A stretch of 64,000 bases of DNA. It comes from Gemmatimonadota bacterium. Its GTDB lineage: Bacteria > Gemmatimonadota > Gemmatimonadetes > Gemmatimonadales > Gemmatimonadaceae. Below are positions 47,675-48,989 of this stretch, piece by piece. Position 1 is the stretch's first letter. Every line of letters starts with the position of its first letter. The position numbers and the translations under genes were made by a program. The notes below the pieces were generated by a model that ran no database searches, had not been told where the DNA came from, and saw nothing but the letters and a program-made list of their open reading frames with translations. The stretch lies in NCBI GenBank assembly GCA_028287235.1, contig JAQBQB010000030.1, forward strand, positions 186,001 to 250,000, written 5' to 3'.

Positions 47675-48193
47675 TTAGGCGGTCTGCGGCTCGCGGCTGT
47701 TCGCCTTGTGCGCCGACCTCACGCCCTCGAGCAGCTTGAGCAACTGTCGCTGCTCGGCGTCGGACAGGTTGCCGACAGCCACTTCGTCGGCGCCTTTCAT
47801 TGCTTCATCGAGCTCCTCGAGCACGGCCAGCCCTTCCTCGGTGATGTAGCAGAAGACCTGCCGGCGGTCGGGCGACGTACGCTCGCGGCGCGCCAGCCCT
47901 GCCTTCTCGAGCTTGTCGAGGAGGCGCGTGATACCCGGCGCCTCGTGGATCATGCGGTCGCGGATCACGAGCGTGGGCAGGCCCTCGTCGCCCGCGCCGC
48001 GGAGGATGCGGAGCACGTTGTACTGCTGCGTCGTCACGCCGCTCCGCGCCACGACCTGCGCGAAATGGCGCTCGATGAGCGCCGCGGTTCTGAGAATGCT
48101 TACGGCGACTTCGGCCTTGACCGAATGAAACGGACGCCGCTGGGCGATCTCCGCCTGCAGTCCCGTTCCTTCTTTGGAGGGCGGCGTGCTCAC
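47675..48193 (-). CDS. MarR-family transcriptional regulator
   Basis: I place the start at GTG 48193, giving 172 residues, because it overlaps the stop of a short leader ORF that has the only strong ribosome site. The open frame extends to an ATG at 48322 (215 residues), but that extra part would fill the divergent promoter region. The winged helix is at about 60-130: GVTTQQYNVLRILRGAG, LVIRDRMIHEAPGITRLLDK and RRERTSPDRRQVFCYIT (wing). MarR proteins are dimeric repressors that often respond to phenolics or oxidants. It is convergent with the GT39 gene and divergent from the TetR gene. Confidence 0.86.
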   Translation of the reverse strand: MSTPPSKEGTGLQAEIAQRRPFHSVKAEVAVSILRTAALIERHFAQVVARSGVTTQQYNVLRILRGAGDEGLPTLVIRDRMIHEAPGITRLLDKLEKAGLARRERTSPDRRQVFCYITEEGLAVLEELDEAMKGADEVAVGNLSDAEQRQLLKLLEGVRSAHKANSREPQTA

Positions 48194-48231
48194 CTGGCGC
48201 CCCCCGGGCGTGTCTTTCGCTTGTGCCGCAT
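48190..48231 (-). CDS. 13-residue basic leader ORF of the MarR gene
   Basis: On the minus strand a perfect AAGGAG (48237-48242) lies 5 nt before an ATG at 48231. It opens a short ORF of 13 codons, MRHKRKTRPGGAR, whose TGA shares 4 nt with the GTG start of the MarR gene (GTGA). The MarR frame has no start codon at good distance from that ribosome site. This looks like a leader peptide with six Arg/Lys residues that couples or attenuates MarR translation. The regulatory role is inference. Confidence 0.5.
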   Translation of the reverse strand: MRHKRKTRPGGAR

Positions 48232-48356
48232 CCTGTCTCCTTCGGTCAATTTCGCGACGTAGCCTGATGATAGACGTTTGCCGCGAGAGACGCGAGCCGC
48301 CATTGTTCAGAACGCACAGCACCCACCGCGCGCTGGCCGATCTTCGGAACAGGCAA
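48232..48356. promoter_or_regulatory. Divergent control region of marR-like and tetR-like genes
   Basis: This region holds the promoters of the two divergent regulator genes. Toward the MarR side a -10-like TATCAT is at 48267-48272 on the minus strand, without a clear -35. I see no strong palindromic operator. Confidence 0.35.
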
Positions 48357-48989
48357 ATGACGACTCCGCGCTTTCGTCCGCCGCAGCAGCATCGCAGTCA
48401 GGAGACGTTGGATCGGATATTGGATGCAGCCGAACGTGTGCTCGACGACAAGAGCTTCTCCGAAGCCACCTTGGTCGAGATCATGGAGCGCGCCGGTGTC
48501 ACCGTTGGGGCCTTCTATCGCCGCTTTCCCGACAAGAACGCGCTGCTGCACCTCATGGACGAGCGCTTCTTCGGTGAGCTGTATGCCCGCGGCGACGCGG
48601 TGCTCAGCCCCAACCGTTGGCCTGACGCACCAATCGCCGACATCCTCGGAGAGTTCACGCGCGAAGCGGTCATCATCTACCGCGAGCGCCGCGGCCTGCT
48701 CCGCAGCTTGTTCCTCCGCGCGCGGATCGATCCCGTCATCCAGGACACCGCCCGCCAGGTGAACGCGCATCTCATCCAGCGCCTCGTGGCGCTCCTGATG
48801 CCGCGCGTCGCCGAGATTCGCCATCCCGATCCCCGGCGGGCAATCGAGCTCGGCTACATGGTGCTCGTCGGCGCACTGCGCGAGACGACGCTTTTCGGCG
48901 AGGTGTGGCCCACGCCGAACCTCGCCGATGGCTTGGATCTCACCGGCGAGCTCACGAGAGTGTACCTCGGATATCTGGGCGTGTACTAG
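48357..48989 (+). CDS. TetR-family transcriptional regulator
   Basis: Start ATG 48357 gives the usual TetR opening; the open frame before it runs back into the MarR side and is a shadow. The 210-residue protein has an HTH at about 12-58 (ETLDRILDAAERVLDDKSF, TLVEIMERAGVTVGAFYRRF) and a helical ligand domain. The regulator is divergent from the MarR gene. The nearest downstream gene in the same direction is the TonB-dependent receptor, 118 bp away. Confidence 0.92.
   Translation: MTTPRFRPPQQHRSQETLDRILDAAERVLDDKSFSEATLVEIMERAGVTVGAFYRRFPDKNALLHLMDERFFGELYARGDAVLSPNRWPDAPIADILGEFTREAVIIYRERRGLLRSLFLRARIDPVIQDTARQVNAHLIQRLVALLMPRVAEIRHPDPRRAIELGYMVLVGALRETTLFGEVWPTPNLADGLDLTGELTRVYLGYLGVY

Follow-up and report, generated by a model that had tools for sequence, protein, structure and literature searches.

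A short out-of-frame ORF overlaps the start of a MarR-family gene in a Gemmatimonadaceae genome, in a layout consistent with translational coupling

The locus considered here lies in a 64,000-nucleotide stretch of a Gemmatimonadota genome (contig JAQBQB010000030.1, family Gemmatimonadaceae), hereafter the window, and its features are collected in Table 1: A gene for a MarR-family transcriptional regulator is preceded by a short open reading frame (ORF), with a Shine–Dalgarno (SD) sequence of its own, whose stop codon overlaps the MarR start codon. The family assignment comes from a Pfam scan in which the query was a longer, 215-aa version of the frame, and which returned MarR_2 (PF12802) with an E value of 2.3e-8 and 34.5 bits, against a curated cut-off of 27; the nearest solved structure to the protein is chain 3u2r. 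Orthologs in five congeners (L002–L006) are 76%–82% identical and, with the window's locus, make up the six same-genus loci compared below. A genome-wide contig scan found no further same-genus locus, the three closest entries (L031–L033) being taken as the same records as L003, L005, and L006. A convergent PMT-family gene faces MarR and is its neighbor in five of the six loci, and the divergent TetR-family gene was not found at the other five, within about 1.5–2.5 kb on each side.

Table 1. Features at the MarR locus, in window coordinates.
Feature	Position	Strand	Basis
MarR-family regulator gene, 172 aa, GTG start	47675..48193	minus	Pfam MarR_2/MarR
GTGA stop/start overlap, leader TGA with MarR GTG	48190..48193	minus	sequence
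13-codon leader ORF MRHKRKTRPGGAR, stop TGA 48192–48190	48190..48231	minus	sequence; out-of-frame counterparts in L003, L005, L006
Predicted hairpin CGCCC-GGG-GGGCG, with G-run ahead of MarR GTG	48198..48210	minus	minimum-energy fold; centroid minus outermost pair
Shine–Dalgarno sequence AAGGAG of leader	48237..48242	minus	sequence
−10-like element TATCAT, putative leader–MarR transcript	48267..48272	minus	TATCAT in 5/6, TATCGT in 1/6 orthologs
−35-like element CTCGCG, 18 nt from −10-like box	48291..48296	minus	CTCGCS, equal spacing, in 6/6 same-genus orthologs
Divergent TetR-family gene beside MarR	48357–48989	plus	this genome only among six same-genus loci

From the upstream stop to the conserved motif LQAEIAQRRPF, the MarR frame holds only two standard start codons, GTG 48322 and GTG 48193. 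We reject the long, 215-aa form beginning at GTG 48322 on two grounds: That codon lies upstream of a conserved promoter-like pair, and in-frame stops in the orthologs L003 and L006 allow MarR to start only at the site equivalent to GTG 48193. An earlier note on this DNA, made from its letters, had held that no other MarR start fits, and on this point it was right; it had also named a pattern that would speak against its reading, a long N-terminus conserved while the leader is not, and the stops in L003 and L006 exclude that long form. At the same-genus loci the MarR N-terminus consists of 7–14 variable residues ahead of LQAEIAQRRPF or its equivalent. The MarR start is hereby moved from 48322 to GTG 48193, which shortens the protein from 215 to 172 aa.

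The promoter-like pair, CTCGCS-N18-TATCRT, is found by alignment at all six same-genus loci, downstream of GTG 48322 in the window, and occurs once in the 2.1 million strand-bases of our genome sample. It is likely the promoter of a leader–MarR transcript, for which we infer a start near 48260. A sigma-70 promoter scan gave no consensus match, even though the two spaced elements are conserved in the alignment; the −35 half is unlike the sigma-70 consensus, and the pair may consist of a −10 element combined with a regulator site.

On the minus strand, the layout that the earlier note described is exact: a 13-codon leader with AAGGAG-N5-ATG (spacer ACAGG, ATG at 48231–48229) and a GTGA overlap onto MarR, the leader lying out of frame, at +1 relative to MarR. 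To ask how often this layout recurs, we looked for ORFs that begin with ATG, lie out of frame with MarR, and end at its start codon. Such an ORF is present at four of the six same-genus loci and at 3 of 33 other homologs (Fisher p 0.0055); the 3 outside positives include L022, whose start is probably misassigned (TTG, with an ATG just before), and L023, whose ORF starts upstream of its likely promoter. The comparison as a whole began with 47 loci, of which 39 were kept and 8 skipped for a missing motif or start (L010, L017, L018, L019, L021, L030, L113, and L186); L178 gave no match. In L002 and L004, which belong to the same genus, no such ORF was found. All four same-genus leaders are in the +1 frame relative to MarR, and their stop codons begin close to the first base of the MarR start, from 5 nt ahead of it to 1 nt past it. 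The GTGA overlap is present in L005 and L006 as well, with TAACGATG at this point in L003, where the overlapping GTG has become GTA, the leader stop is retained as TAA, and a new ATG lies two nt further on. The leaders vary in other respects: They have 13 codons in the window, 11 in L003, 12 in L006, and 30 in L005, and a 5-base SD match is seen in just two of them. In L005 an additional ATG in the MarR frame lies 5 nt past the leader ATG, and MarR may start there. A tree built from 13 MarR proteins to place the gains and losses of the leader gave no clear branching order inside the genus.

The same alignments bear on the suspicion that the assembly lacks one G in the G-run ahead of MarR, the gene truly beginning at ATG 48231. 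One extra G in the run would indeed fuse the leader and MarR frames, but the L003, L005, and L006 assemblies are also out of frame, and they lack this homopolymer; moreover, in-frame stops in L003 and L006 bar a MarR start at the leader. We reject this explanation as scarcely credible.

The arrangement had been taken in the earlier note as a sign of translational attenuation or coupling, and the note counted six Arg/Lys codons among the 13. That count is correct (4 Arg and 2 Lys in MRHKRKTRPGGAR), and it places the leader in the top 2.2% of 929 ATG ORFs of 11–15 codons in the genome sample. Such a bias could serve regulated attenuation, in which stalling on the basic leader (for example, when charged arginine or lysine tRNA is low, or in the presence of a ribosome-targeting drug) would alter folding or coupling and so set MarR levels. 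The bias is, however, peculiar to the window's genome: Basic residues number only 2 of 11, 3 of 12, and 7 of 30 in the orthologous leaders. Nor is the peptide conserved, as MRHKRKTRPGGAR, MGMHRVMTGAK, MPRASNNRRGQP, and the 30-residue leader have no evident sequence in common when compared by eye. Folding of the leader RNA does not exceed that of its shuffles (z of +0.60, with a minimum-energy structure of low probability), and no terminator-like site was found on the minus strand between 48100 and 48400. Attenuation of the ermC type requires a leader peptide that stalls the ribosome, as well as hairpins in the leader–gene interval that switch. The MarR locus resembles that type in that a short leader, equipped with an SD, precedes a gene with a possibly sequestered start; unlike that type, it shows no conserved peptide, and the leader stop overlaps the MarR start. 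We therefore regard regulated attenuation as improbable. Within the genus, what recurs at four of six loci is stop position and frame, and what does not recur is peptide, length, and basic content; of the two readings offered in the earlier note, coupling is the better fit, and attenuation is left without peptide conservation or unusual folding.

A further possibility is −1 slippage on CCCGGGG/GGGGGGC (48208–48199), yielding a MarR protein with the basic N-terminus MRHKRKTRPGGRQVSTPP. The leader frame does contain two overlapping X-XXY-YYZ heptamers here, a −1 shift from it enters the MarR frame, and a minor frameshifted uORF fusion is reported for PPE2 (PMC11260477); the leaders of L003, L005, and L006, however, have no such heptamer, and we consider slippage very doubtful. 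Equally slim is the chance that elongation through the basic G-run frame would decide between restarting at GTGA and slipping by −1 on CCCGGGG, hence two MarR forms. If that were true, MarR would also exist in a form with a basic arm at its N-terminus, and the two forms would be set by translation rather than by ligand.

How readily might such a leader arise by chance? The 73 nt between the −10-like box and the GTG were put through 20,000 dinucleotide shuffles, with the sequence from the MarR start onward left unchanged. An ATG ORF that was out of frame with MarR and had its stop at the MarR start turned up in 13.7% of the shuffles, such an ORF with a 5-base SD in 0.7%, and one with a 6-base SD in 0.2%. 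When each leader was shuffled independently, finding the ORF at four or more of the six loci had p 0.0007 and a 5-base SD at two or more of six had p 0.0002, figures that ignore kinship among the loci and rest on criteria chosen after the loci had been viewed. Short stand-alone SD-ATG ORFs overlapping a gene start are also rare in the genome background: Two, one of them the window's leader, were found among 786 coding-like ORFs, which a crude GC-position filter had picked from 1.07 Mb of the 5.73-Mb genome, window included. Four more 4-nt overlaps found in this sample lie at the ends of longer open frames, 142 to 457 codons upstream.

The claim that the leader has the best ribosome site in the region holds only in part. 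Its AAGGAG and spacing are as described, but the G-run before MarR pairs with the anti-SD equally well (−9.4 kcal/mol at 6-nt spacing, vs −9.3 for the leader SD), as computed with a consensus anti-SD that may differ from the organism's own, a 16S search of its genome sequence having given no match. The G-run, held in the predicted hairpin, could act as the MarR SD. In the window the MarR SD region costs 8.3 kcal/mol to open vs 1.6 for the leader SD, and the MarR start region 15.6 vs 5.6 for the leader start. The difference runs in the same direction in L005 (MarR 14.1, leader 3.4) and is reversed in L003 (MarR 8.2, leader 9.2) and L006 (MarR 10.7, leader 15.5), so the accessibility contrast is not a conserved feature.

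These figures feed the most substantial rival to coupling, that the leader is incidental and MarR initiates alone at GTG 48193, with the G-run as its SD or with none. The SD-ATG would then be present by chance or mildly tolerated, perhaps as the remnant of an older in-frame start. Besides the G-run pairing, this explanation is favored by the homologs, among which SD-less MarR starts are the rule (30 of 33 outside the genus have no SD match of at least 4 bases); by L004, where an in-frame GTG served by a strong SD follows the −10 element at a distance of 35 nt, just as the leader ATG does in the window; and by the two congeners that lack a leader. It fits poorly with the finding that leaders in four of six congeners agree in frame and very nearly in where they stop, and with the low frequency in shuffles of a 6-base-SD start having this stop. 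We hold an incidental leader to be an appreciable but unlikely possibility.

The reading we prefer, with a confidence a little above even, is that the leader, an upstream ORF, is translated and thereby couples translation to MarR constitutively, through termination and reinitiation. Ribosomes would enter at AAGGAG-ATG, which is the first good site that the transcript offers, and read the 13 codons while melting the small hairpin around the G-run before the MarR start; they would then terminate at TGA and reinitiate at the overlapping GTG; the amino acids of the leader would be incidental, and what would count is its being translated and the location of its stop. Leader translation, the dependence of MarR on the leader, and the role of the hairpin are all deduced here from sequence. 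Several observations argue for coupling: the properly spaced SD-ATG together with the GTGA overlap; the recurrence of the layout within the genus, in constant frame and with a near-constant stop, vs its scarcity outside; the retention of the stop in L003 even though the GTG is lost; the greater cost of opening the MarR start in the window; and the rarity of stand-alone leaders. Against it stand the absence of the leader from L002 and L004, the 5-base SD in only half of the leaders, the possible use by L005 MarR of its own in-frame ATG, and the reversed accessibility contrast in L003 and L006. Since SD-less MarR starts are usual outside the genus and the window's G-run is a possible SD, the leader may be unnecessary; and because the G-run possibly allows independent initiation, coupling is plausible only.

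By its sequence features, the locus fits among known cases of coupling by an upstream ORF, of the iraD and uPPE2 kind. The iraD leader ORF of Escherichia coli is an experimentally shown case (PMC5574718), and it is likewise a short ORF with a stop codon overlapping the start codon of a regulatory gene. There, translation is coupled and RNA structure encloses the downstream SD, as the predicted hairpin may do for MarR. Control of iraD, however, is exerted by CsrA binding at the leader ORF, whereas the MarR leader is not known to bind such a protein. For uPPE2-PPE2 of Mycobacterium tuberculosis, dependence on the uORF was shown with reporters (PMC11260477), and the two loci have in common an out-of-frame uORF with an SD, a 4-nt NUGA stop/start overlap, and a downstream gene without a clear SD. 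Unlike the MarR leader, uPPE2 belongs to a B12 riboswitch; an Rfam search of the MarR leader found no riboswitch and no family reaching threshold, the single match (RF01129, 14.7 bits vs a cut-off of 45) being attributable to chance. More generally, termination–reinitiation at 4-nt overlaps is described as widespread (PMC6728339); the gene pairs concerned have the 4-nt stop/start overlap seen here, but both of their frames are full genes, whereas the upstream frame here has 13 codons. A literature search, judged at the level of search results, found no MarR leader of this kind and no Gemmatimonas transcript-start study. If coupling holds, the locus would be a small case of uORF control of a transcription regulator in the Gemmatimonadaceae, a little-studied family. 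It is also an example of a leader kept by position and frame, not by peptide.

Two side observations concern other loci. The second stand-alone leader in the genome sample, at L119:19347–19400 (G000 contig 1, minus strand), reads GAGGAGG-ATG with the peptide MDTLFGCGRPSDAAGLT and has a 4-nt ATGA overlap with the gene for an 881-aa MacB/FtsX-type permease. Paralogous and more distant MarR genes, at L111:1950–2000 (minus strand) and at several of L021–L030, show a GTTATAAC-type palindrome flanked by TTGAC-like and TATNAT-like elements, and their ATG comes a few bases past the −10, a pattern that suggests leaderless, self-repressed MarR transcripts.
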